Under the pieces are notes generated by a model. That model had not been told where the DNA came from, searched no databases, and saw only the letters and a list, made by a program, of their open reading frames with translations. 46,140 nucleotides of DNA. Origin: a virus. How positions within the stretch are numbered: the first letter of the stretch is position 1; every line of letters starts with the position of its first letter. Both the position numbers and the translations under genes were made by a program. Below, one piece after another: positions 6,803 through 46,140 of this stretch. The stretch is from IMG/VR virus record IMGVR_UViG_3300020020_000008, positions 1 through 46,140 of that record. One strand, 5' to 3'.

Positions 6803-6983
6803 TGATGAAACAATGATGGAACTCCTTGGTATTCACAAGGGGTCAAAGTATTATTTGTGTGGAGTATGTATTAAGAACTTCGGTATTCCTGTCAAAGTAA
6901 AGGAAACTAATGTCAATGAAGTACGTGCCGGGGATGGGTGCGATAGGCCCGAAGATAATGATACTGGGGGACTCCCCGAGTAG
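6768..6983 (+). CDS. Zinc-ribbon miniprotein (71 aa)
   Basis: CPHC (residues 6-9) and CGVC near residues 31-34 form a four-cysteine zinc ribbon. GAGGA lies eight bases before the ATG. The gene starts inside the end of the cold-shock gene and runs 74 bases into the polymerase gene in another frame, so the C-terminal tail is constrained by overlap. It is a probable nucleic-acid or protein-binding accessory of the polymerase, inferred from its position. Confidence 0.65.
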   Translation: MIQLKCPHCRNDDETMMELLGIHKGSKYYLCGVCIKNFGIPVKVKETNVNEVRAGDGCDRPEDNDTGGLPE

Positions 6984-9438
6984 GGAAGATACTATCGCAG
7001 GTAAACCATTCACTGGAACTCCAGGTAGAGAACTAGAACGATTACTGAAAGATGCTGGTATCAATAAGGGTGACTGTTGGCTCACCAATGTATCCAAATA
7101 TCAGGTTCCACCTAACTATGATAAGAAGAAGTCATCGTTCTATGCACGCGCGGTGGCGTCAGGAATTGATATTAACCAACAACTAGCGGAACTACAACTT
7201 GAAATCAACAGTATTAAGCCTAACATTATTGTCGCTCTCGGCGGCACTCCTCTATGGGCGCTCTCCGGTAAAACTAAGATTAGTAAATTTCGAGGTTCTC
7301 TCGGCTGGGGTATGGGGACTAAGTTTGTTCCTACCTATAATCCCGCGCACCTTCTATTTAGTGCTCCGGGTGGAGAAATCAAAGGTTACTGGAACAGACA
7401 AATAATCATCTTCGATTTGAAACGCGCCTTAGACGAGTCACACTCATCTACTCTCGAATTACCCCAAAGAACTCTCCAGATAGCTCAGAACTCAGGTGAA
7501 CTCTACGAGTTCCTTGAGCGATATAAATCCCATCAAAAATTAGCCGTAGACATTGAGGCTGGTGGTCACTGTCTACCCATCTGCGTCGGACTTGCATTCA
7601 ACAAGTCTCACGGAATGACTGTGCCTCTATGGAATCGAGATAACATTAGTACCATACCGAATTCAGACCTTGTCAATATGTGGCTACTCTTAGCCAAAGT
7701 ATTATGGGAGAAAGACATTGTCGGACAAAACTTCAATTACGATAGAGACAAACTCCGTAGACTGGGTTTCACTATTAGGCGAATTCACTCAGATACTATG
7801 CTCAAAGCATTCGCGATTAACCCTGAACTCCCGAAAGGGCTTGCATTCAATACAAGTATCTACACCCGAGAACCATTCTATAAAGATGAAGGGATGTATG
7901 AGGGGAGCACTAGAGATTTACTACTCGGATGTGCTAGAGATAGTTGTGTTACATACGAAATAAACGATGCGATGGACACCGACTTAGATGAGTTGGGTGT
8001 CAGGAAATTCTACGAGAACTTCATTCTCCAGTTACCAGACTTCTATGCCGAGATTGAATCGAATGGATTCCACGTCGATGAAGCGCGACGTGAGGAATTG
8101 ATTGAGAAGTATGTAACGTGGGATGAGAAGTTGAAGTATGAAATGTATCAGATTGTGGGTGACGACATCAATGTCAACTCAGCTCCTCAGGTGTCATCTT
8201 TACTATTCGATAATTGGAAGTTACCTAGAAGACCTGGTACGGGCGAAGAGGAATTAACTAGTCTATTAAATCTTCAGAAAGGTGTAGAATATCCCCCATA
8301 CAGGCAATGGATTGAAAAGTGTTTAGAGAGACGGCGAGTAAGGAAAACGATATCCACGTATCTAATGGCGATTCCCGATTTCGATGGGAAGATGCGCACT
8401 ACTTGTTTTATGTGTCTTGAAACTGGTCGCACTTCGACCGGACAACAGAATCCGCCCATCAGACCACTGGTGGATTTAGTTGGCAGGGGTAAGCAAGACG
8501 ACATGAAACCTATGGGTACGGCATTTCAGGTATTCACTAAGCATGGTGATATCGGAGCTGACGTGCGAAGTATGTATATCCCTCCGAAGGGGGAAGTATT
8601 TGTCCAATTAGACTCGTCGCAGGCAGAAGCCAGAGTAGTGTTTAACCTCGCTACAGACGAACAGGCATTAAAGGACATAGATGAACATGACTATCATGCA
8701 CTCACTGCGAGCTGGTTTTTCGGTGGTTCGGAGGCTGACTATTCCAAGAAAGTATTGGGGTACGAATCGCCAATTAGATTCGCAGGGAAGACTCTACGTC
8801 ATGCGGGCCATCTTGGCGCGGGCAAACGCAGAGCAGCAACAGAACTTAACACACAAGCACGAAAATATAAGATTCCCCTTACCATTACTGAAGCTATTGC
8901 AGAACGTGCTCTCAACATATTCCACCAAAAGCAACCAAAAATTAGACACATCTTCCACGCACAAGTAGTAGAGGCATTGAAAAATGACAGACGACTCATT
9001 GCACCCCTCCCTTGGGGTATTGACTCTGACCGCGGCGGTGTCCGTACATTTTACGAACGATGGGGAGATGATCTTTTCAGAGAAGCATTATCTTACCTCC
9101 CTCAGCGAGCCGTCACTGATAATACCAAAGCAGCTGGTATTAGAATTAAGAAACAATTCAGAGAGGCGAGAATTATTCTTGAGGCTCATGACGCATTACT
9201 TTACTCGGTCAGAATCGAGTACGTAGATGAGTTCATCGCACTCGCCAAGAAAGAAATGGAGAGGGCGATTAACTTCAGTGCGTGTACTCTCAAGAGAAGA
9301 TTCCTGAAGATTCCATGTGACGTGGAAATCGGAGAGAACTATCAAGACTTGAAGAAACATAAGTTCCCTCTCCCGACTATCATTGAGGAACGAAGTGAAC
9401 CGAAGACTATAACGGATCAGTTTCTAGTACAGGAGTGA
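6910..9438 (+). CDS. Uracil-DNA glycosylase / 3'-5' exonuclease / family A DNA polymerase fusion
   Basis: 842 residues. 1-175 is a UDG-superfamily domain: GDSPSRED (20-27), PFTGTPG, LTNVSKY, and NPAH (144-147) in the second motif. Exonuclease domain: D214-x-E216, D278 in NFNYD, D344. The polymerase has motif A D568-SSQ-x-E573-x-R and motif B R623...K627, with H631 and L635 where E. coli Pol I has F762 and Y766. Motif C is H760-D761-A762, so the usual second acidic residue is alanine. It is the likely replicative polymerase. UDG-like N-termini are known in a few phage polymerases such as SPO1; whether this one is catalytic is untested. Confidence 0.9.
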   Translation: MSMKYVPGMGAIGPKIMILGDSPSREDTIAGKPFTGTPGRELERLLKDAGINKGDCWLTNVSKYQVPPNYDKKKSSFYARAVASGIDINQQLAELQLEINSIKPNIIVALGGTPLWALSGKTKISKFRGSLGWGMGTKFVPTYNPAHLLFSAPGGEIKGYWNRQIIIFDLKRALDESHSSTLELPQRTLQIAQNSGELYEFLERYKSHQKLAVDIEAGGHCLPICVGLAFNKSHGMTVPLWNRDNISTIPNSDLVNMWLLLAKVLWEKDIVGQNFNYDRDKLRRLGFTIRRIHSDTMLKAFAINPELPKGLAFNTSIYTREPFYKDEGMYEGSTRDLLLGCARDSCVTYEINDAMDTDLDELGVRKFYENFILQLPDFYAEIESNGFHVDEARREELIEKYVTWDEKLKYEMYQIVGDDINVNSAPQVSSLLFDNWKLPRRPGTGEEELTSLLNLQKGVEYPPYRQWIEKCLERRRVRKTISTYLMAIPDFDGKMRTTCFMCLETGRTSTGQQNPPIRPLVDLVGRGKQDDMKPMGTAFQVFTKHGDIGADVRSMYIPPKGEVFVQLDSSQAEARVVFNLATDEQALKDIDEHDYHALTASWFFGGSEADYSKKVLGYESPIRFAGKTLRHAGHLGAGKRRAATELNTQARKYKIPLTITEAIAERALNIFHQKQPKIRHIFHAQVVEALKNDRRLIAPLPWGIDSDRGGVRTFYERWGDDLFREALSYLPQRAVTDNTKAAGIRIKKQFREARIILEAHDALLYSVRIEYVDEFIALAKKEMERAINFSACTLKRRFLKIPCDVEIGENYQDLKKHKFPLPTIIEERSEPKTITDQFLVQE

Positions 9439-11443: not shown

Positions 11444-14400
11444 TTAGCGCTCAGACCAAGGGAATGCACGGGGTTCTTCGTCAGTACCTAGATTCCAAGG
11501 CATGAGATCCTTCATGCCGCCACCAGTAACAAGCCAATCATTATCAGGCTGTAGGAACTTACTGACAGATTCACCTTTACTGTAAACCTGAGTACCTCCA
11601 CCAAATGCTGCTGCCGTACCCATCCAGGGAACTAATGAAGGATCTTCTTCATACAGTTCCATTAAGTCCTGCACAATGAGTGGGACGAATAACTGGACAC
11701 TACGGTCACCAACATGGAATGGATTGTATTCTGACGCACTCGCAATGTCATATGCAAATTTGGTTACCGGATTCAGCTTATTCACAAAGAATCGTTGCAT
11801 CATATCTTCTTGTGTCTGAGCCTGATATCCGGAACCAAATCTGTGGAATTCACCACTCGCACTTGAAGTAGCTCCTCCCATATAGGCACGTGCATATGCG
11901 ACTGCGAATGGTCCAAATCCACCACTCAGGTCCATACGTGCATCACCAAGTCTAACCTTACCGAAGTCTGCACTAGTAGGGTCCATACCTACTGTAGCTT
12001 CATCCCCTGCTGCTTTCTTAATCAATTCAGCCGAAATCCACCATGCTGCGGCAGTAGATACTGCTGCCTTGAGATACTGTTTTCTCACGAATGGACTCGC
12101 CATGATGTACGTATTCGGATTCATCATGCGTACATTACGAGCCAACAGACCTGGAGAGAATAGGACATAACTCAACTTGTCCGTCGCACTCTCCAGAGAT
12201 ACTTCTGCTTTCTTATACGGCAGTAAATGAGTCTTCAGGGGTCCGTGTCCAGTGGCTGTATTAACGAAATCTGCGATTTCCTTACCGCGCACCAGATTAT
12301 GATATGGATTCAAATTCTGTGCATCCTCAGGGGAAATCTTAGTTTTCCACGGCATGATTCCCTGACGCACTTTACCCTTTTCGACCCCTTCCATAGCCAT
12401 ATCTCGTGCAAGATTCAGCAGTTTCTCAGTTCTGTTTACATTCAAGTGATTCAAGAATGTAATGTACATTCGATTCGTTGCACGGATTGGGTATCCGATA
12501 GTATGTTGCCATAATTTAGATCCCCTAGTGGGTTCCCATACTTTCCTTCCAGTCTCTTGGTCTGCTACCCTACGACCGATACCCATCTCTAACCATCGAC
12601 TAGCAGTAGATTCGGCACGAGGTCCAGGTTCACTAGCAGGAGAGAACATTTTGGTGCCAATTAAGTCACCGAATGACTTCTCTAATTTACCAGTATCCTC
12701 ATTGATATGCCGTACCATGATGTCCTTACTTCTAAGGTCGGCATCGATCTGTTTGAACCCCTCATAGCTAATACCCTTGAACATTGCATAGCCGGCTTTC
12801 CAGAATTCAGGGGTTAGAATTAGAGGTAATCCCTGCCGTCCGGGTGCGGATGCATCAAGCATAGTAGTGGCATTAGTAGGTACTGATAGAGCCTCTTTGA
12901 TGTAGTTAACTTCTTTAGCTTTACCTGGTTCCTTACCACTCTGACCCTGACCCCATCCAGTCGCACTTTTAATTCTGGCCCAAGGTCTACCCTTGAACTC
13001 AGACATTATGTCGACGGCAGAAGTTCCATCTCCATCTGTTGAACCAGTGCCAGGAATGTTTCCCTCTCCAGTGGGTCCGGTATTTGCCTGCTTAACTCCC
13101 GTTCTTGTGAGAAGGTCTTCCGTAACCTCTGCTCTCCCTCTTGATTGAGAATAGAGGTGTAGTAATTCCTGAACTTCTGGACTGTATCCCCCAGATTTAT
13201 TACCTCCGGTGTAGAGGTTTGTGAGAACTTCTGTTGCATTGATTCTTCGTTTGGCTCCGAAGGTAGCATACACTTCTCCTAATCTATGAGCGAACCCCAT
13301 TCCGTGTCCAGTATTCCTAAGTCCCACATCTCCATGATTAATCAGTTCATTGATATAGGCTTGAAAGTATTCAGCACCCACTCTGGGATCATCAACATCA
13401 GATGGATTAAATTGAATTGGTGCTCCTGCTTCATTACCAATATGGGCTACTTCATGCTGACCCGTTCCAACAGCTTTATAGGCCGCATCTCTAGGAGTTA
13501 ATCCCTGCTCAATCCGAAGGAATGGATTGAATGCAATGGATGATTTTCCTGTAGTTGGATTCGGGATATGTAACCCATGTGACCCAGGGTCAAATGATAA
13601 TCCTACTCCCTCAAGTCTATCAGCCCATTCTGGCTTATTAGCATGTAAAATAATATTGTCCACCAGAGAGTCGTAGAACTTGAGTATGTTTACGACTAAT
13701 GGATTCTTATTCAGTCTTTCTACTTCCTGAGGAGTCAATCGATTACCAGGGTCTAGTAACAGTGGCTTACGTTTGAGTCCGGGTACAGTCATCTGACCCA
13801 TCGAATCGTATAGTTCCTGAGTGCGATTCTTCGACTTGTCTACTGCAGGTCCAGTAACATTTTTTCTGAGGAAGGTACCGATAATTTCTCTAATATCCTT
13901 CTTTACATCTTCTCTCGTGTTGATGAATGGATAATTATCGTGCATTTCATCAACTTGAGGTTCAATATTTACGACTGCATGTTCAGGTAATCCTGTAATT
14001 TTCTTGGTTGCGTAAAGTGGTTCAGAGAATTGGTACATTCCATTGTTTAAGTAATGGATTTGAATACTTGATCGTTCTACGCTGAGATCAGATGCAGGAA
14101 CTTGAACTTTAACTCGACTATCGTGAGTTACGAAATCTCCGACTAGTTTATCAGTATCGGAATTAGTAAAATTAATATCTTTTACCGAATTATATTGATC
14201 TGGTATCACATCACGTAATGGAGTATCACTAGTTAAGCCATATTCATCATACATTATTTTAGATGGTCTATCTCTAGTATGGTCAAGAATATTCTTAACC
14301 ATTTCTCTAGTATTACGAGTATTTTGTTCATCCTTCAATTGCACTTCAATAGTGGTTCCAGTTGGAGTAGAGTCAGATACACGTACACGATCCCAATCAG

Positions 14401-16804
14401 ATCCATGAACAGGATCTAAGAACTGATCAGGAGTTCCACTTGCAGTAATTTGGTATTTTCGACCATCTTTCGCATCAACTGCGACAGTCTCAATAGTAAA
14501 GTATTTTCCACCAAAGATGTAAGATGCACTACCGATACCCTTACCTCCAGTAGCACCGGCTTCATTCTCCTTGCCAGTTGCAAACATGGTGACTAGTTTT
14601 TCGGATAATGTATCTTCATCCATTCCCTTGCCGTTATCGAATACTTCAATAGTTTTATCACCAACTCTAATCTTAACTACTCCATTTGGACCTAATTGAT
14701 CAGCTGCGTCAAGGGCATTCTGAAGCCCTTCACGAGCCATAATTCCGCTGAGTGGACTGGTGTAGTCTTTAGTGATATTCTGAACGGTACGACGGATATC
14801 CACACTCGCAACTAAGCCCTTACCTGCAGTAGCTCTAGCGAGTGATGGTTCAGTCAGATTACGAATCTCTTCGTCTAATTGAATGACTTGACGTTGGTCC
14901 CCATTACGTGCCGCGTTCTCTCTGAGTGCGATTAATTCATCTACTCCCCTTGCTCGACTACTTGGAGGCTTTTCACCAATATCATTGACGTACCCATTTT
15001 CCACATCTGCCATGTCATGGGCTTCATCATAGTCAGTAGTCTCATGAATAAGAGTACCATCTTCTTCGTAAACCTTATATCTCTTATGTTCACCAGGAGT
15101 TAGATCCTGATATCCACGCTTCGGTCTCGGTTTAGCGGCGTCGAATGATGGACCCTCATCATATTCCGCAGACTGGAATGATGGACTGTCGTCGTCGGGT
15201 TCGACGGAGGCGAATTTACGGAATACAGTCTTCTTATCATCCTTACGGACTACTCTGTATCCAATCTTCTCCATGCTCTGGATGAAGGTTTCGGTAGCCT
15301 TTTCGTTAGCTACTGGTACTATTTCACCCGCTACCAATTTACCAGTTGGGGGCCCAGCTGCTGCATTAGCCTTAGCTCTCATCTGCTGTTCAAATGCAGT
15401 TAATGCTCTACCACCTGGTAATGGGGGCTTACCGACATACAATGATGCTACGTCTTTACGCACCATCTGGATTCGGCCATTAGAGTCCAATAGACCAGGA
15501 ACTGGTACGTAACCATTATCCTCTAGTATTTTACTAGCACCCGCACTCGGTTGGTTAATGGTAGCAATGTGACCATTATCAGATATGGTGACACCATGTG
15601 GCGCAACTAATGGTGCCCTAGCTATGGGTGGAGATGTAGTTGTTGGAATATCTCCCACTGATGCAGGTAATCCGCCAGTCGGTGGTGGAGGTACATTAGG
15701 TGGACGTGGTGGAACATTAGGTGGTGGAACCGGAGGCGGAGCCTGGACTGGACGTGGAGCAAATGAACCAACTGGAACTGCATGATCTGGACGAACTACA
15801 TTTAGACCAAGATTCAATTGACCATTCTCATCGAATGGTAAATCAGTCTGACCCTCTCTCAGTCCATATGGCCCAATGTCTGCACCATACTCTAATCCAG
15901 GGGTAACTTGACGAGTTTGGGGTACTCCTTCTCTAGAAACGTATCCCATTGGAGTACGTTCAAATCGCTCATCAAATGGTACATTCATCTCCATTGATGG
16001 TGGCGGAGGAGTTGGACTCTCAGGAGGCATATCACCCACACTAAAGAGTGAGGGTTGATCCATCTCTGGAACTTTAGCGAAATCGAATAATGACTGCTCT
16101 CCTTCAGGTGCAACTGATCTTTGAGCAGTATTCATAAATGGCACTGGTTCTGCCATCGGAGGTGGAACCTGTGTCTTAGCCAGTGCAGCAGCCGCAGCAT
16201 CAGCATCTGCCTTAGACTTAACAGCTGCAATTTGGTCTAATCTAGTCTTATTGAGTCTACCTAGAGGATATCCTAGTGTAGCACCTGTACCTAGACCAAA
16301 TATACCTCCAGCAGCAGCCTCGCCTAATCCTTCTCCAAGAGTGGGTAATTCTAGGTTACCTTCCTCATCGAAGATTCGTTCCTCTCTCGCCATATGACGA
16401 GGAATGGCACCTGCAGCACCCTGCGCTAAGCCATATCCACCAGATTTAGCAATATATGGTGCTATTTCTTTGAGTACCGCACTCTTGGGTAAATTAGGTC
16501 CAGGGGCTAAGTTGAATAGACCCTCAAGAGCTGCAGTCTTAAAGTTAATTGGTTCATCATTGAGCCATTGACCCGTTAATTCAGCAGCAGCTCCGCCTAG
16601 ACCCGAGATAACTGGATAACTCAGCCCACCCGTGAATGGAGCGAGATATGCGCCAACTTGGTCAGCTAATAATGAGCCACCAACTCTAGCAGCATTCCCC
16701 CTATTGAGGAATTTATTCCTCTCTTCGGGAGGAGGTTGAACATCTTCCCAATCATTGATTTGAGAGGGTGGAACTGTCTCCCAATCAGTAATTTTCTGAG
16801 GCAT
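11444..16804 (-). CDS. Giant multidomain internal virion protein with GHKL ATPase and HExxH peptidase motif
   Basis: 1786 residues. The N-terminus (about 36-160) has Gly/Ala-rich helical stretches typical of ejected proteins. A long Pro-rich linker follows. A GHKL (Hsp90/MutL-type) ATPase domain spans about 670-900: N-box E692...N696, G1 box DNGKGM (723-728), G2 box GGKGIG (753-758). The HEVAH motif (1117-1121) is followed by NEAG, as in zinc metallopeptidases. The C-terminal part is helical, with an apolar segment (AAAWWISAELI). It is last in the virion arm after two other internal-protein-like genes, so it is probably packaged and injected. The mix resembles 'polyvalent' phage proteins; its target is unknown. 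Confidence 0.8.
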   Translation of the reverse strand: MPQKITDWETVPPSQINDWEDVQPPPEERNKFLNRGNAARVGGSLLADQVGAYLAPFTGGLSYPVISGLGGAAAELTGQWLNDEPINFKTAALEGLFNLAPGPNLPKSAVLKEIAPYIAKSGGYGLAQGAAGAIPRHMAREERIFDEEGNLELPTLGEGLGEAAAGGIFGLGTGATLGYPLGRLNKTRLDQIAAVKSKADADAAAAALAKTQVPPPMAEPVPFMNTAQRSVAPEGEQSLFDFAKVPEMDQPSLFSVGDMPPESPTPPPPSMEMNVPFDERFERTPMGYVSREGVPQTRQVTPGLEYGADIGPYGLREGQTDLPFDENGQLNLGLNVVRPDHAVPVGSFAPRPVQAPPPVPPPNVPPRPPNVPPPPTGGLPASVGDIPTTTSPPIARAPLVAPHGVTISDNGHIATINQPSAGASKILEDNGYVPVPGLLDSNGRIQMVRKDVASLYVGKPPLPGGRALTAFEQQMRAKANAAAGPPTGKLVAGEIVPVANEKATETFIQSMEKIGYRVVRKDDKKTVFRKFASVEPDDDSPSFQSAEYDEGPSFDAAKPRPKRGYQDLTPGEHKRYKVYEEDGTLIHETTDYDEAHDMADVENGYVNDIGEKPPSSRARGVDELIALRENAARNGDQRQVIQLDEEIRNLTEPSLARATAGKGLVASVDIRRTVQNITKDYTSPLSGIMAREGLQNALDAADQLGPNGVVKIRVGDKTIEVFDNGKGMDEDTLSEKLVTMFATGKENEAGATGGKGIGSASYIFGGKYFTIETVAVDAKDGRKYQITASGTPDQFLDPVHGSDWDRVRVSDSTPTGTTIEVQLKDEQNTRNTREMVKNILDHTRDRPSKIMYDEYGLTSDTPLRDVIPDQYNSVKDINFTNSDTDKLVGDFVTHDSRVKVQVPASDLSVERSSIQIHYLNNGMYQFSEPLYATKKITGLPEHAVVNIEPQVDEMHDNYPFINTREDVKKDIREIIGTFLRKNVTGPAVDKSKNRTQELYDSMGQMTVPGLKRKPLLLDPGNRLTPQEVERLNKNPLVVNILKFYDSLVDNIILHANKPEWADRLEGVGLSFDPGSHGLHIPNPTTGKSSIAFNPFLRIEQGLTPRDAAYKAVGTGQHEVAHIGNEAGAPIQFNPSDVDDPRVGAEYFQAYINELINHGDVGLRNTGHGMGFAHRLGEVYATFGAKRRINATEVLTNLYTGGNKSGGYSPEVQELLHLYSQSRGRAEVTEDLLTRTGVKQANTGPTGEGNIPGTGSTDGDGTSAVDIMSEFKGRPWARIKSATGWGQGQSGKEPGKAKEVNYIKEALSVPTNATTMLDASAPGRQGLPLILTPEFWKAGYAMFKGISYEGFKQIDADLRSKDIMVRHINEDTGKLEKSFGDLIGTKMFSPASEPGPRAESTASRWLEMGIGRRVADQETGRKVWEPTRGSKLWQHTIGYPIRATNRMYITFLNHLNVNRTEKLLNLARDMAMEGVEKGKVRQGIMPWKTKISPEDAQNLNPYHNLVRGKEIADFVNTATGHGPLKTHLLPYKKAEVSLESATDKLSYVLFSPGLLARNVRMMNPNTYIMASPFVRKQYLKAAVSTAAAWWISAELIKKAAGDEATVGMDPTSADFGKVRLGDARMDLSGGFGPFAVAYARAYMGGATSSASGEFHRFGSGYQAQTQEDMMQRFFVNKLNPVTKFAYDIASASEYNPFHVGDRSVQLFVPLIVQDLMELYEEDPSLVPWMGTAAAFGGGTQVYSKGESVSKFLQPDNDWLVTGGGMKDLMPWNLGTDEEPRAFPWSER

Positions 16805-18378
16805 TATTGGTTACCCCACGTCTGACCACCGTCATGGGAATACTGCCACGTCTTACCGCCATCGGTAGATTTACGCACTTCATTGGGCTGAGATTTACTA
16901 GCCTGAGTGATTACATTCTGTCCTGATGACGCAGGAGCTGATTGAGCAGGAGTATTGGCGGCTCTACGGTCCTTAATTCCCTGTAACTGATTCTGTAGAG
17001 TCTGACGCTGACTCGGTCCCAGATTAGGATTCTTCAGAGCTTCGTTGATTTCAGCTTCTCTCTTCGTATCCGCTGATAAGGAATCGTTGATACCCTTTAA
17101 TTGACCCTCAAGTGCGGCCCTTCCACGGGGGTCTAATTTCGGATTCTCTAAGTCTTTCTGGAGCTGCTGCTGTCTAGTCAGTTTAGGTGGAGCAGGCGGA
17201 GCAGTGGGTCCGATTGCAGATTTAGTCGGCTCTGTTTTCACAGGTTCCGGTACTGTAGTAGGTGTCTTAGCAACAGGAACTTTGTAGGTGTCATCTACAC
17301 TAGCTCTAAATTCATCGTATGCGTTTACATCTTCTTGAGTGTATTTCTGTCCACCGAATCCAAATGTACCAGTACCTGGGATAGTTTCACCTATCACTGG
17401 ACGAGGATTAAAATCGTATTTACCCTCGGCAACTTTCTTAACGTATGGTTTAGTGGTGACATCAGTCTGATATGCATTCTGCAACGCCTCATTTCGGAGA
17501 CGTGCTTTATCCAATACAGAGACTTTAGTAGAACCACCCGGTACAGTTTGTCTGACCTGAATAGCTCCTTCAGTTCTCTTGGCAATTTCTGCCATATCTC
17601 CCTTATGACGTAATTCTTCCAATTCAAGGGGATTGAAATGAGTAGTGAGAGTACCTGTATTGAATGTAGTTCCGTCAGGTCTTTTTGCAATGACGTATTC
17701 ACCTGATGTATCATAGGTATAACTGTACTTAGTCTTCCAGTCAAGTAATCTCTGCTTATCCTGGGCTAACTTGAAATCATTTGACTGTTTCTCAGCCCGT
17801 AAATCAAGTCCACGCTGAGCAACTTCATTCTGATTTGCCCAACGTTCCATATTCGACTCATTCGTCAGGACATTATTCGCTAATTGACGTTCCTGAGAAT
17901 TAGCTGAATTTTCAATAGATGCGCCCTGGTAGAATGGTGTAGTTTTAGCCTTCCAATCCTCCATCGCACGATTATGAGGCGCATACATGACATCTTCTTG
18001 GAGTTTGGGATTATTCTCTCTTCGACCTACTCCCATACCTGATGCGACGATACTCCGCATGATGCCGGGTTCTTGACGTACTGGAGCATTGTCTAATAGA
18101 CCCCTAAATCTGTCCCTATCGACAGTTGATGGGGTATACAATTCATCCATTTTCTCCTGATATGTACGGGAGGGTGCTCCAGTATCCATCGGAAGAGAAT
18201 TGGCAACAGAATTTACATCCTGTTGGATGAATGATGGGTCTATCTCTGGTTCCTGTAGCGGACCCATGATATTTGGGTCCATTTGCTGTTCAGGAGGAAG
18301 TTGGCCGTAATTGTCGAACATCTTACGGCGTAATCCCTTGACATCAATTTGAGGAGTCCAACCGGATGGGGGAAACAT
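16804..18378 (-). CDS. Internal virion/ejection protein, Gln-rich, with C-terminal Asp-box-like repeats (524 aa)
   Basis: Long Gln/Arg/Glu-rich helical protein with repeated stretches such as L-x-N-P-x-L-x-P-x-x-R/Q-x-A/T-L around residues 405-480 and Pro-rich linkers. The last 21 residues hold two short copies of D-G-G-x-T-W, the Asp-box turn found in sialidase-type and other propellers, but two copies alone cannot form a propeller. One-base overlap with the giant protein downstream. A packaged internal or tail-tip protein is inferred. Confidence 0.65.
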   Translation of the reverse strand: MFPPSGWTPQIDVKGLRRKMFDNYGQLPPEQQMDPNIMGPLQEPEIDPSFIQQDVNSVANSLPMDTGAPSRTYQEKMDELYTPSTVDRDRFRGLLDNAPVRQEPGIMRSIVASGMGVGRRENNPKLQEDVMYAPHNRAMEDWKAKTTPFYQGASIENSANSQERQLANNVLTNESNMERWANQNEVAQRGLDLRAEKQSNDFKLAQDKQRLLDWKTKYSYTYDTSGEYVIAKRPDGTTFNTGTLTTHFNPLELEELRHKGDMAEIAKRTEGAIQVRQTVPGGSTKVSVLDKARLRNEALQNAYQTDVTTKPYVKKVAEGKYDFNPRPVIGETIPGTGTFGFGGQKYTQEDVNAYDEFRASVDDTYKVPVAKTPTTVPEPVKTEPTKSAIGPTAPPAPPKLTRQQQLQKDLENPKLDPRGRAALEGQLKGINDSLSADTKREAEINEALKNPNLGPSQRQTLQNQLQGIKDRRAANTPAQSAPASSGQNVITQASKSQPNEVRKSTDGGKTWQYSHDGGQTWGNQ

Positions 18379-19577
18379 TATTGACCTCCCGCCGGAAATT
18401 TAATATTCTTATTCAGAATTGGTTGCTGCATCCCACCTGATGTATATCCGCCGTCTGGCTGAACTCCACCATATTGTGGAGTAGGAGTCTTGTTAAAGTA
18501 TCTCTCTAACATACCTACGTATGGATTAGCGTAAGTCATTGCATCATTAATGTAACCTTTAGTATTCTCGTATCTGCCATCTAACTGCTGCGCATTACCC
18601 TCATGACCAATGTATGAGCTACCCATCTGACCACTGTCACCAATGGCATTACCAAGCTGATTCCCAAACATATTTGCCATTCCGGGGGTAGTTCCATACA
18701 GCGACGTAGCTCCTTGTAACGCATTAATTGCATTACCTTGATTCCACTGATCTGCTTGCATTCCAGCAGTAGCATTGAACTGATTAGTCTGCATTTCTGC
18801 GCCTAATCTGCTATTTTCAATGTCTGACATGCCTCTCATTCCAGCAAGCTGATTACCGATACGATTCTGGTCAATTCCAGCCATACCGCCGAAGCCACTC
18901 AGACGACCAGCATTACGACCTTGAACAATACCAGCTTCTACGTTCTGCATAGCATCTGCCATGCCCTGACCTTGTTCTCTAGCCATTTTGGCCTGTACAG
19001 CAGCAGCATTAGGTGAGTATCCACCCTGTAATGCTCTACCTCGATTTACCTCTCGTTCAGCATTCGCATACGCTGCTCGTATGGGACTAGTACCACGAGC
19101 GCGGAGGTTAGAGATATCATTAGCAGAGTATCCGCCAGTCTTTCCAAACTCGCTATAACCCTGATATGCCTCATTGTTTGGAAGGTCGTATCCACCAGTT
19201 TTACTCATCCCTTCAAAGTCACCATATGACTTGAATGGGTCTGAATAACTTGAATATCGTGCATTAACACCCGGTCCATTAGCTAATGAGGAGAATCGAC
19301 TCATCAGATTATCGTAATCCTGATTTCCCCTCTCTAATGCACCACCGAATCCTTCCCCTAATTGATTCATATAGGGGTCCATCTGTCCTCTGAATCGACT
19401 AGACTCATCTAGAATTCGATTCTGAACACGTCCCCGTTCATCATTTCCGCTGACTTTATAGATGTCAGTATTAGCAGCAGGTGACTGCCATCCTGATGGT
19501 CTTTCTTGAGCTGTCTGTGTATTAGCCGGGGCAGCCGGACGTTGTTCCTGTGGCTTCTTGTTCTTATTGGAACCCAT
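18378..19577 (-). CDS. Internal virion protein, Gly/Asn/Gln-rich (399 aa)
   Basis: Low-complexity N-terminus (Lys/Gln/Pro/Ala), then repeated Gly-Tyr-rich patterns (S/K-T-G-G-Y-x), and a helical central part rich in Ala, Gln and Met (about 190-300) likely to pack as a helical bundle. The Gly-rich C-terminus is disordered. Its place beside two other large internal proteins matches the podovirus ejectosome block. Overlaps the next gene by one base. No enzyme motif. Confidence 0.65.
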   Translation of the reverse strand: MGSNKNKKPQEQRPAAPANTQTAQERPSGWQSPAANTDIYKVSGNDERGRVQNRILDESSRFRGQMDPYMNQLGEGFGGALERGNQDYDNLMSRFSSLANGPGVNARYSSYSDPFKSYGDFEGMSKTGGYDLPNNEAYQGYSEFGKTGGYSANDISNLRARGTSPIRAAYANAEREVNRGRALQGGYSPNAAAVQAKMAREQGQGMADAMQNVEAGIVQGRNAGRLSGFGGMAGIDQNRIGNQLAGMRGMSDIENSRLGAEMQTNQFNATAGMQADQWNQGNAINALQGATSLYGTTPGMANMFGNQLGNAIGDSGQMGSSYIGHEGNAQQLDGRYENTKGYINDAMTYANPYVGMLERYFNKTPTPQYGGVQPDGGYTSGGMQQPILNKNIKFPAGGQ

Positions 19578-19584
19578 AAATGCC

Positions 19585-19956
19585 TCACAAATCTAAAATT
19601 AACGACTGCCCATCAGGTGGTCTAAATCCATTACGTTTCAATCTACGCGCCCAATGAGGATTCTGACTCCACACATACAACTGGTCATATCCATGTCTCT
19701 GAGCGACGTATGATGACACGTTTAGAATCCGATATAATGCCTTAATTCTGTCTCTTGGATCACGGCTCTTATCAGTTACCGTTACGCACTCAGCGATATC
19801 ACGCACTCCACCGACTGTAATGATTCCCTTCTCATCCTCGATGATATAAGCACAAAGATAACTCATAAAATCAGGGAGAGGAAACTCATCTCCAAAATGA
19901 GCGGTATGAATCCGCTCTAATTCTGGTACATCATCTGGAGTGAATGGTCGAATCAT
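19585..19956 (-). CDS. GNAT-like N-acetyltransferase (123 aa)
   Basis: M-I-R-P-F-T-P-D-D-V-P-x-L-E-R-I opens like GNAT proteins, followed by a strand pair (CAYIIEDEKGIITVGGVR). A helix in the acetyl-CoA position comes next (KALYRILNVSSYVAQRHG), then YVWSQNPHWARRLKRNGF. The Q/R-x-x-G-x-A pyrophosphate loop is weak, so activity is uncertain. Similar GNAT-like proteins often sit in podovirus structural blocks; they may modify capsid or host proteins, or be catalytically dead parts. Confidence 0.65.
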   Translation of the reverse strand: MIRPFTPDDVPELERIHTAHFGDEFPLPDFMSYLCAYIIEDEKGIITVGGVRDIAECVTVTDKSRDPRDRIKALYRILNVSSYVAQRHGYDQLYVWSQNPHWARRLKRNGFRPPDGQSLILDL

Positions 19957-44104: not shown

Positions 44105-44147
44105 TAGTAACAGAGTAATTGATACGCATCCGCAAGGACTATCACAC

Positions 44148-46140
44148 ATGACTAGACAACAAGCAACACAAAGACTTAGGGAAGAGCTAATTAGGCATGG
44201 ACTGGCAGACTGGTCAGTCAGACTGAATCAGAATGCAGACTCTAGATTCCTAGGACTCTGCAGCTATAAAGACAAGTGTATCATCTTGTCTGCCCACCAC
44301 ATCGACATCCATCCTGACCCGGATGTTATCAATACAATCAAGCACGAAGTTGCCCATGCACTCTGTCCAGGTCATGGACATAATGACACGTGGGCCGCTA
44401 AGGCTAGAGAGATTGGATGTGATAACACTCTGCCCTGCTCGAATCTGTCACTATCACCTGAAGTCATCGATGCGATTAGGTCAGGTGCGACGGTAGAGGT
44501 GACATTCGAGGAACATATCATTCGCACTCCGAAATACAATATCACACGACTTCAGGACAAATGTCCTACGTGTGGTAAAGTCGCCGTCATGAAGTCTGAA
44601 AAGACTATCGTCATGTCAGGCGATACGACTCCCAACATGAGATTCACCACATTGGAATGTGGTCATGTCATTCTCAAGAATATTCCTAAAGGAACTCCAT
44701 TCCATAAGTTCCAGTTCGGTGGGTCAGAGACATGTGAACACAAGTGGGAAAAGAATACTTGTGTACTCTGTAACCGAAAGAGACCCTATGACTTTCAGTT
44801 AAAGGGAATGGAATTCATCGAGGCAGGTCTGGCGGTCAATCATGGCGCGGCATGCTTCGATGACATGGGATTAGGTAAGACAATTCAGGCCGGCGCAGTG
44901 GTGTATTTCCATCCCGAATACTGGCCTGTTCTCTGGATTGTCAAGTCAGCTCTGAAATATCAGACGGCGCACTTCATTATGAATTGGATGTGCCACGGTC
45001 TAGAGACGACACACATTCCACAGATAATCAATTCGTCGAAAGATTATCTGATGCCGGGCGTCAATCACTACATCATCGGATACGATATGTTGGTGCCTAA
45101 GACGCGGACTCTCAAGAACGGCACGATTGTCAACTCAGGATTCAATATCGAGCAATTCAATCGGGTCGGCATCAAGTGTGTGATTCTAGACGAATGTCAA
45201 CAGATTAAGAATGTTGACTCCACACGCACTCAGATGGTACGTAAGGTAGTTAAGGGTAGGAAAGTAATTCCACTCAGTGGGACGCCGTGGAATAACAGAG
45301 GCAGTGAACTATTTCCGGTGTTCAATATGATGGACCCGACTAAGTTCCACTCTGAAGAAGCGTTCAAGCGACAGTGGGTGGATTATTACTTTCAAGGTGC
45401 ATTCCGTAAAGAAGGTGGAATTAGACGTATTCCACAATTCAAAGAATACACGAAAGACTTGTGTATCCGTCGTGAGCGCACGGAAGTATTGCCAGAGTTG
45501 CCACTCGTCAACAGGACGAAGTTGAATGTCGTGATGAGTCCGCAGGATGAGACATCATACGATGAGGCAGTAGACGAATTCGTTAAGTGGTATGAGGCAC
45601 AGGCCGCAGACATGGGCGGTATGGCTATCATCGCTGCTATGGCAAAGATGCGTCACCTCGTCGCACTCGCAAAGATTCCAACTACATTGGACTACGTCGA
45701 GGATTTCGTAGACGGCACGGATAGGAAACTCTGCGTATTCGCCCATCATAAGGATGTTCAGGACATTCTATACGAAGAGATTAAGGCCAAATACGGCAAA
45801 GAGATTCCAGTCCTGCAGTTCGTCGCGGGTGGAGATGTATTCCAGACACAGGAGAAATTCAATTCAGCTCCTCGTGCGATACTCGTAGCCAGTCAGTTAG
45901 CGGCAGGCGAGGGACTCAATCTACAGACGTGTTGTGATTGCCTGATGCATGAAAGACAATGGAATCCAGGCAAAGAGGAACAGTGCGAGGGACGATTCAT
46001 CCGCATCGGTTCTGTCGCTACTTCAGTCTCTGCAGTCTACGCACATCTAGAGGGTCTGACGACTACGGACCCACAACTAGACGCTATCATCGAACGGAAA
46101 CGGATTCAGTTCCATTCGCTACACAACAAGGGTGAGGCTA
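44148..46140 (+). CDS. SprT-like protease fused to SNF2-family helicase (690 aa over the junction)
   Basis: ATG with CCGCAAGGAC upstream. Residues 1-110 carry H66-E-V-A-H70 and G-H-G-H-N-D (75-80), the zinc site of SprT/Spartan-type proteases. Two zinc-finger-like cysteine groups follow (CPTCG near 139-143, and CEHKW/CVLC before the helicase). The SNF2 core has motif I DDMGLGKT (238-245), motif II DECQ (348-351), motif III SGTPWNN from 377, motif V with GEGLNLQ, and motif VI HERQWNP...FIRIG (601-622). The gene continues across the circle to 207. A role in clearing DNA-protein crosslinks or host proteins from phage DNA is inferred. Confidence 0.88.
   Translation, partial: MTRQQATQRLREELIRHGLADWSVRLNQNADSRFLGLCSYKDKCIILSAHHIDIHPDPDVINTIKHEVAHALCPGHGHNDTWAAKAREIGCDNTLPCSNLSLSPEVIDAIRSGATVEVTFEEHIIRTPKYNITRLQDKCPTCGKVAVMKSEKTIVMSGDTTPNMRFTTLECGHVILKNIPKGTPFHKFQFGGSETCEHKWEKNTCVLCNRKRPYDFQLKGMEFIEAGLAVNHGAACFDDMGLGKTIQAGAVVYFHPEYWPVLWIVKSALKYQTAHFIMNWMCHGLETTHIPQIINSSKDYLMPGVNHYIIGYDMLVPKTRTLKNGTIVNSGFNIEQFNRVGIKCVILDECQQIKNVDSTRTQMVRKVVKGRKVIPLSGTPWNNRGSELFPVFNMMDPTKFHSEEAFKRQWVDYYFQGAFRKEGGIRRIPQFKEYTKDLCIRRERTEVLPELPLVNRTKLNVVMSPQDETSYDEAVDEFVKWYEAQAADMGGMAIIAAMAKMRHLVALAKIPTTLDYVEDFVDGTDRKLCVFAHHKDVQDILYEEIKAKYGKEIPVLQFVAGGDVFQTQEKFNSAPRAILVASQLAAGEGLNLQTCCDCLMHERQWNPGKEEQCEGRFIRIGSVATSVSAVYAHLEGLTTTDPQLDAIIERKRIQFHSLHNKGEA
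46014..46140. repeat. Right copy of 127-bp terminal direct repeat
   Basis: Identical to bases 1-127. The non-redundant genome is 46,013 bp. The repeat lies inside a coding region (C-terminal part of the SprT-SNF2 protein), an unusual place for a genuine packaging terminus. Confidence 0.95.

Follow-up and report, generated by a model that had tools for sequence, protein, structure and literature searches.

The giant gene and its protein

The DNA analysed here, a 46,140-nt stretch of viral sequence referred to as the window, has direct terminal repeats of 127 bp and is therefore probably a complete genome. Its late operon consists of terminase, portal-sized, capsid, adaptor, tail and fibre genes, followed by a GNAT-like gene and genes for 399-aa and 524-aa proteins, and it ends in a giant open reading frame (Table 1). 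The coordinates of this frame and its 1786-aa size were given correctly in the initial annotation, which omitted the strand: the gene is on the minus strand and runs from 16804 to 11444, while the plus strand across the same interval contains many stops.

Table 1. Features of the giant gene and of the genes that precede it in the late operon. Coordinates are those of the window; residue numbers are those of the giant protein.
Feature	Coordinates	Strand	Remarks
Giant ORF, 1786 aa	11444..16804	-	Largest gene of the late operon, at its end
Residues 1-210, N-terminus; 31-210 Gly/Ala-rich	16175..16804	-	32% identity to relative G001 over residues 7-187
Residues 211-654, Pro-rich linker	14843..16174	-	Little conservation
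Residues 667-824, predicted Bergerat/GHKL ATP-binding domain	14333..14806	-	Pfam HATPase_c; model matches
N-box E692-D699 (EGLQNALD)	14708..14731	-	E692, Q695, N696 and D699 invariant in ten homologues
G1 box DNGKGM, 723-728	14621..14638	-
G2/lid box GGKGIG, 753-758	14531..14548	-
Residues 825-984, predicted transducer/middle domain of the GHKL machine	13853..14332	-	Structural match extends to model residue 330
YPFINTRED, 958-966, candidate catalytic-arginine loop	13907..13933	-	Y958, P959, F960 and R964 invariant
Residues 1005-1221, predicted zincin-like metallopeptidase domain	13142..13792	-	Model and VIA neighbours
HEVAH, 1117-1121, predicted zinc ligands and catalytic Glu	13442..13456	-	HExxH invariant in ten homologues
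TGHGMGF, 1165-1171; H1167 candidate third zinc ligand	13292..13312	-	Column H or E in 10/10; F1171 invariant
Residues 1261-1786, C-terminal region	11447..13024	-	Common to other giant phage proteins: G001 61%, L013 26%, MW202497 27%
524-aa gene directly upstream, second of ejection-type trio	16804..18378	-	Syntenic in relatives
399-aa gene, first of ejection-type trio	18378..19577	-	Syntenic in relatives
123-aa protein, GNAT-like by eye, between fibre and ejection-type genes	19585..19956	-	Syntenic in G001 and L033

The motifs lie at the residues originally named, with E692, N696 and D699 falling within REGLQNALD. The ordered N-box/DxGxG/GGxG set did not occur in any of 2000 shuffles of the giant protein. 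HExxH alone turned up in 3% of 2000 shuffles, so that HEVAH required independent support; conservation supplies it, because the ten homologues described below all align with HExxH unchanged at this position, which marks it as a real signal. A reading of the motifs as chance occurrences is ruled out by the shuffles together with conservation in ten proteins. The Gly-rich N-terminal helices of the initial annotation were confirmed in composition (residues 31-210 are 16% Gly and 18% Ala). They are not strong membrane anchors, because no 19-residue window in this region reaches a hydropathy above 1.3, and a membrane-anchor reading of the N-terminus was rejected for this reason.

A GHKL ATPase domain followed by a transducer

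As judged from sequence and modelled structure, residues 661-985 are a genuine GHKL (Bergerat) ATPase domain, for which ATPase activity is predicted. The N, G1 and G2 boxes occur in order with their invariant Glu, Asn, Asp and Gly residues, and Pfam HATPase_c (30 bits vs. a cut-off of 26.4) and HATPase_c_3 (26.2 vs. 25) both match residues 694-824. A family profile compared with the PDB retrieved Hsp90-type N-domains (E 1.8e-13). The AlphaFold (AF2) model of the module, i.e., the ATPase and peptidase regions together (pLDDT 82, pTM 0.67), matched Topo VI-B, Hsp90, GyrB and MORC2 in VIA with Z-scores of 16.6-18 (MORC2, 16.6) over about 250-280 residues. This match spans the Bergerat domain plus a second (transducer/M) domain at an rmsd of 3.5-4 Å, and alignments past model residue 330 have an rmsd of ~10 Å or more. 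The full Bergerat ATP site that had been proposed is therefore borne out by profile and by modelled fold: structure prediction, named at the outset as the test that could refute it, gave a Bergerat fold, and the HMM search against GHKL families found two above their Pfam cut-offs. As a description of how the N and M domains fold, the label "Hsp90/MORC-like" is fair, and the likeness to MORC covers that region only.

The resemblance to Hsp90/HtpG, Topo VI-B, GyrB and MORC2 thus consists of a modelled Bergerat N-domain with a transducer, to which may be added the similarity of YPFxxxR to a loop of the Hsp90 M domain. These proteins differ from the phage protein in that a predicted zincin takes the place of their C-terminal modules, and identity to them is about 11-18%. 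YPFINTRED resembles LPLNxSRE, the M-domain loop that provides the catalytic arginine of Hsp90; by analogy, R964 may be the catalytic arginine here.

A zincin-like domain around HEVAH

Residues 1005-1221 are, on the evidence of sequence and model, a zincin-like domain that resembles Wss1 and is not a WLM member. Modelled on its own, the domain gave a pLDDT of 82 and a pTM of 0.82, and HExxH plus a third H/E ligand are present in a zincin-type model. The initial claim of a protease at HEVAH is thereby upheld to the extent that a zincin-like domain with a third-ligand-like H1167 is modelled around the motif, proteolysis itself being predicted. In VIA, the best match to this model was Wss1 (Z 6.5, 117 aligned residues, 3.7 Å), a weak score in a range (Z <8) that is not decisive, followed by YbeY-type proteins, SPRTN (Z 5.3), and M48 and ERAP peptidases, so that nearly all of the top rows were zinc metalloenzymes. 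A profile of the peptidase alignment retrieved nothing meaningful from PDB sequences, and Foldseek returned nothing under E 0.1 for the peptidase model; because of the latter result, the zincin assignment leans on the second look with VIA, within the families that VIA lists.

The DNA-protein-crosslink peptidases of the Wss1/WLM and SprT/SPRTN families provide these best rows, and the HExxH-x5-[HE]-x3-F spacing of the compact members of the phage family is similar to that of Wss1. The subfamily to which the window protein belongs has an insert of ~40 residues before GHGxxF. Unlike the crosslink peptidases, the domain in the window does not reach the cut-off of any Pfam peptidase model; the relative L016 has sub-cut-off WLM and SprT matches, and it alone matches WLM (22 bits vs. 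a cut-off of 26, E 1.9e-4). Membership of SprT or WLM was rejected for the window domain, which matches neither Pfam WLM (PF08325) nor SprT (PF10263). The sole SprT match in the window is in a separate gene (44163-44423, plus strand).

One module in ten giant proteins

Database scans identified nine relatives with the same stretch, giving ten proteins in total. Identity to the window's module is 52-57% for five of them (L033, L014, L034, L036 and L035), 27% for G001/L012, 25% for L022, 22% for L017 and 20% for L016. The domain order is the same in all ten: GHKL comes first, followed by another domain that has YPFxxxR at its end, a conserved stretch with G(x)..NP, and finally HExxH and [H/E]xxxF. 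Invariant residues in the ATPase part (window numbering) include D723, G725, G727, G753, G754 and G756 besides the N-box positions, and those in the rest of the module include N1093 and P1094 along with the YPF-R, HExxH and F1171 positions of Table 1, i.e., H1117, E1118 and H1121 in the peptidase motif. For the closest pair, L034 and L036 (~80% identical), dN/dS is ~0.28 in the ATPase and ~0.31 in the peptidase. The invariance of the motifs and the dN/dS values indicate that ATPase and peptidase are a single inherited unit under purifying selection rather than two chance motifs. By sequence comparison, GHKL, transducer and HExxH regions thus constitute a single conserved module, some 550-750 aa long, in ten giant proteins of diverse uncultured phages; this joint module was absent from the initial annotation and is new here. 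L035 and L036 have variant N-boxes (REMGQNGGD and REGLQNTLD) and a HEKAH peptidase motif, with the catalytic residues kept.

An unnamed predicted viral structure, A0A516L4L2, matches over the whole module (E 1.5e-21). Scans with the single modules of L016, L017 and L022 as queries found no further members, and among 297 genomes of the phylum of the L022 host the module was not found beyond the L022 contig itself. The bacterial matches L023-L031 contain GHKL, none has the module's YPF motif, and three Sorangium proteins among them have HExxH far downstream of GHKL. Four others (L024, L026, L027 and L031, from Clostridia-type genomes) are chromosomal proteins of ~920 aa in which GHKL appears, by eye, to follow a SIR2-like region, and these resemble defence proteins.

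Gene order and mosaicism

The order of the 399-aa, 524-aa and giant genes is kept in close relatives, and in L016, L017 and L022, which are unrelated in sequence around the module, the giant gene again lies behind two mid-sized genes. In each context examined the giant gene therefore closes the late operon after two mid-sized genes, which is the pattern of the ejection proteins of T7 (gp14-15-16) and P22 (gp7-20-16), where the largest gene likewise follows two mid-sized ones at the end of the structural cluster. The placement in a late/ejection gene cluster made in the initial annotation is thus corroborated by gene order in the window, in close relatives and in these three contigs. The trio differs from the T7 and P22 proteins in that its members have no sequence match to a PHROG of known function. 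In L016, a neighbouring gene matches a DNA ejection protein PHROG, and a protein at the position equivalent to the GNAT-like gene matches an acetyltransferase PHROG; the giant protein itself has a virion structural N-terminus and a DarB-like antirestriction C-terminus. That of L017 also contains a flavin/NAD oxidoreductase domain. From position and these homologies, the giant gene is probably a late virion gene, the product of which may be packaged and ejected. A small GNAT-like gene, as at window 19585-19956, is also seen at L057 3084-3494, and the giant protein of L017/L058 (5942-12703) combines the FAD/NAD oxidoreductase domain and the GHKL-zincin module with what looks by eye like a ParB-like stretch.

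Identity is distributed unevenly along the giant protein. Compared with G001, the window has 84% identity in the major capsid protein (MCP) and 61% in the C-terminus of the giant protein vs. 26% in the module; compared with L033, identity is 55% in the module vs. 27% in the C-terminus. This mismatch indicates that the module has been exchanged, or is diverging, apart from the protein body, and such mosaicism at the sequence level is as expected of an exchanged effector cassette. L013 (2-10813) contains a 3604-aa open frame with a helicase-like region and HEVAH, which has only the C-terminal region in common with the window protein.

Relation to RIIA and to polyvalent proteins

Among annotated phages, RIIA was the first match of the window's GHKL domain (E 0.02), and the domains of L017 and L022 found it at 4e-5 and 2e-7. 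In hhalign, RIIA scored 146.5 over 217 columns, compared with 115.9 for a SIR2-GHKL family and 102.8 for an Hsp90-like family, a gap that is no clean test because the RIIA profile is deeper than those of the two controls. RIIA proteins were also the main named phage matches in the structure search, so that T4-type RIIA is the closest annotated phage GHKL protein by sequence, profile and predicted structure. Nevertheless, in a tree of 29 GHKL domains RIIA formed a closed clade (100/100) with the module outside it, and no RIIB was found in the window at E<0.1, under conditions in which 7/7 RIIBs found each other (49 query-record pairs). Owing to the separate clade and the missing RIIB, the ATPase is considered RIIA-like in sequence but not RIIA, and RIIA membership was rejected. 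T4-type RIIA also differs in being encoded, in annotated records, by its own gene beside rIIB and in having no HExxH domain, whereas the module is part of a giant late protein. RIIA has been described as a GHKL protein with a variable C-terminus (PMC7824862). Another unnamed GHKL family of ~640 aa, on viral contigs (L018 2441-4369 and L019 3623-5527), lies far from both RIIA and the module in the tree.

The initial annotation had pointed to phage polyvalent proteins, and this comparison holds, since unrelated domains including a predicted zincin occur in one giant late protein. The main text of the polyvalent-protein survey (Iyer et al., 2017, PMC5512222) describes giant multidomain proteins with a virion-type N-terminus, a zincin, a location in late clusters and domain shuffling, with the N4-type virion RNAP proteins as another example, and the DarB-like C-terminus of L016 adds to the likeness. 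The survey describes DarB as a protein of the P1 head whose protection of DNA operates in cis. The window protein differs in that its zincin is fused behind a GHKL-transducer unit; the survey's main text makes no mention of GHKL, Hsp90 or histidine kinase. Nothing matching the transducer-zincin part was found in 50,697 annotated phages, the full module had no counterpart among 72,556 plasmids, and literature searches found no phage GHKL-metallopeptidase fusion. Thus, an injected polyvalent protein is of a known kind, while the GHKL-zincin combination appears to be undescribed.

Proposed function and alternatives

The function that we tentatively favour, with a confidence that falls somewhat short of even, is that of a virion-delivered, ATP-gated clamp that presents host proteins, probably DNA-bound, to its own peptidase. 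The giant protein would be the third and largest of the internal (ejection) protein trio that ends the late operon, would be packed in the head and would arrive in the cell together with the first DNA. On binding ATP, the N/M domains would close as a dimeric clamp, in the manner of Hsp90, Topo VI-B and MORC, with E692 as the general base and R964 contributed by the middle domain. The clamp would hold its substrate, most likely incoming DNA with bound host proteins, beside the tethered Zn peptidase (H1117/E1118/H1121 plus H1167). The peptidase would cut the held proteins and lead to early protection or takeover. The DNA-bound-substrate step is suggested by analogy with MORC/Topo VI and Wss1/SPRTN. 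Counting against a DNA clamp, the same N-M machine in Hsp90 acts on proteins and not on DNA, and no DNA-binding domain was identified in the giant protein; the weakness of the Wss1 match also speaks against the proposed function. A GHKL-powered protease, in which an Hsp90/Topo VI/MORC-type ATP clamp with a Wss1/SPRTN-like peptidase is delivered by the virion, rides the incoming DNA and destroys the host proteins bound to it, is rather unlikely; if true, this would give an ATP-dependent protease with GHKL in the place of an AAA+ motor. Because injected proteins act before phage gene expression, a conserved two-enzyme module in such a protein would be a strong candidate for counter-defence in the first minute of infection. 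The pairing of GHKL and zincin offers discrete mutable residues (E692, R964, E1118 and H1167), and the RIIA-like ATPase provides a new handle on RIIA-type ATPase function, a question since the classical rII work.

Other explanations would assign the two enzymes to the phage's own proteins. Either before or after ejection, the peptidase might process the giant polypeptide that it is part of, or else its trio partners, while GHKL would be a folding or conformational switch that sets the time of cleavage or aids refolding of the threaded protein. This is somewhat unlikely, but it draws on the Hsp90-like N and M domains and on the long Pro-rich linker between N-terminus and module, as well as on the self-cleavage of SPRTN (PMC5127644) and the proposal, in the main text of Iyer et al., of zincin processing of multidomain polyvalent proteins (PMC5512222). 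Neither a cleavage site nor conserved linker sequence was seen, however, and the same text has the related zincin proteins ArdC and TraC1 transferred at full length (PMC5512222). A dedicated chaperone that refolds the trio after portal passage, with a peptidase that clears failures, is a quite improbable alternative to the clamp: ejection proteins must unfold to exit the head, and the N plus M architecture is that of Hsp90, but the Hsp90 C-terminal dimerisation domain was not recognised, and in the comparison with G001 the module has diverged far more than the capsid protein has.

A virion-borne RIIA-like counter-defence, in which GHKL would neutralise an abortive system, Rex-like or otherwise, with the peptidase as the effector of this action, is an unlikely reading. 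It would account for RIIA being the nearest annotated phage GHKL, with the top hhalign score of the three families, and suppression of RexAB has been described for rII homologues of diverse phages (PMC11879866); against it, the closed RIIA clade leaves the module out, the window is without RIIB, and RIIA is normally produced in the cell and not packaged. A non-catalytic structural relic, as might be imagined for so large, mosaic and Pro-rich a protein, is a very improbable reading of the module, given catalytic residues that are invariant across ten proteins down to ~20% identity and a dN/dS of ~0.3.

Other genes of the window

A fusion of a SprT-like metallopeptidase domain and an SNF2 helicase (44142-46140, plus strand; PF10263 at 38 bits, PF00176 and PF00271) runs past the window end across the terminal repeat, so that this phage has another HExxH peptidase of broadly the same type. 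The window also encodes a uracil-DNA glycosylase fused to a family A DNA polymerase (6910-9438, plus strand), and a fusion that looks similar by eye is present on the L022 contig (16429-19560, minus strand).
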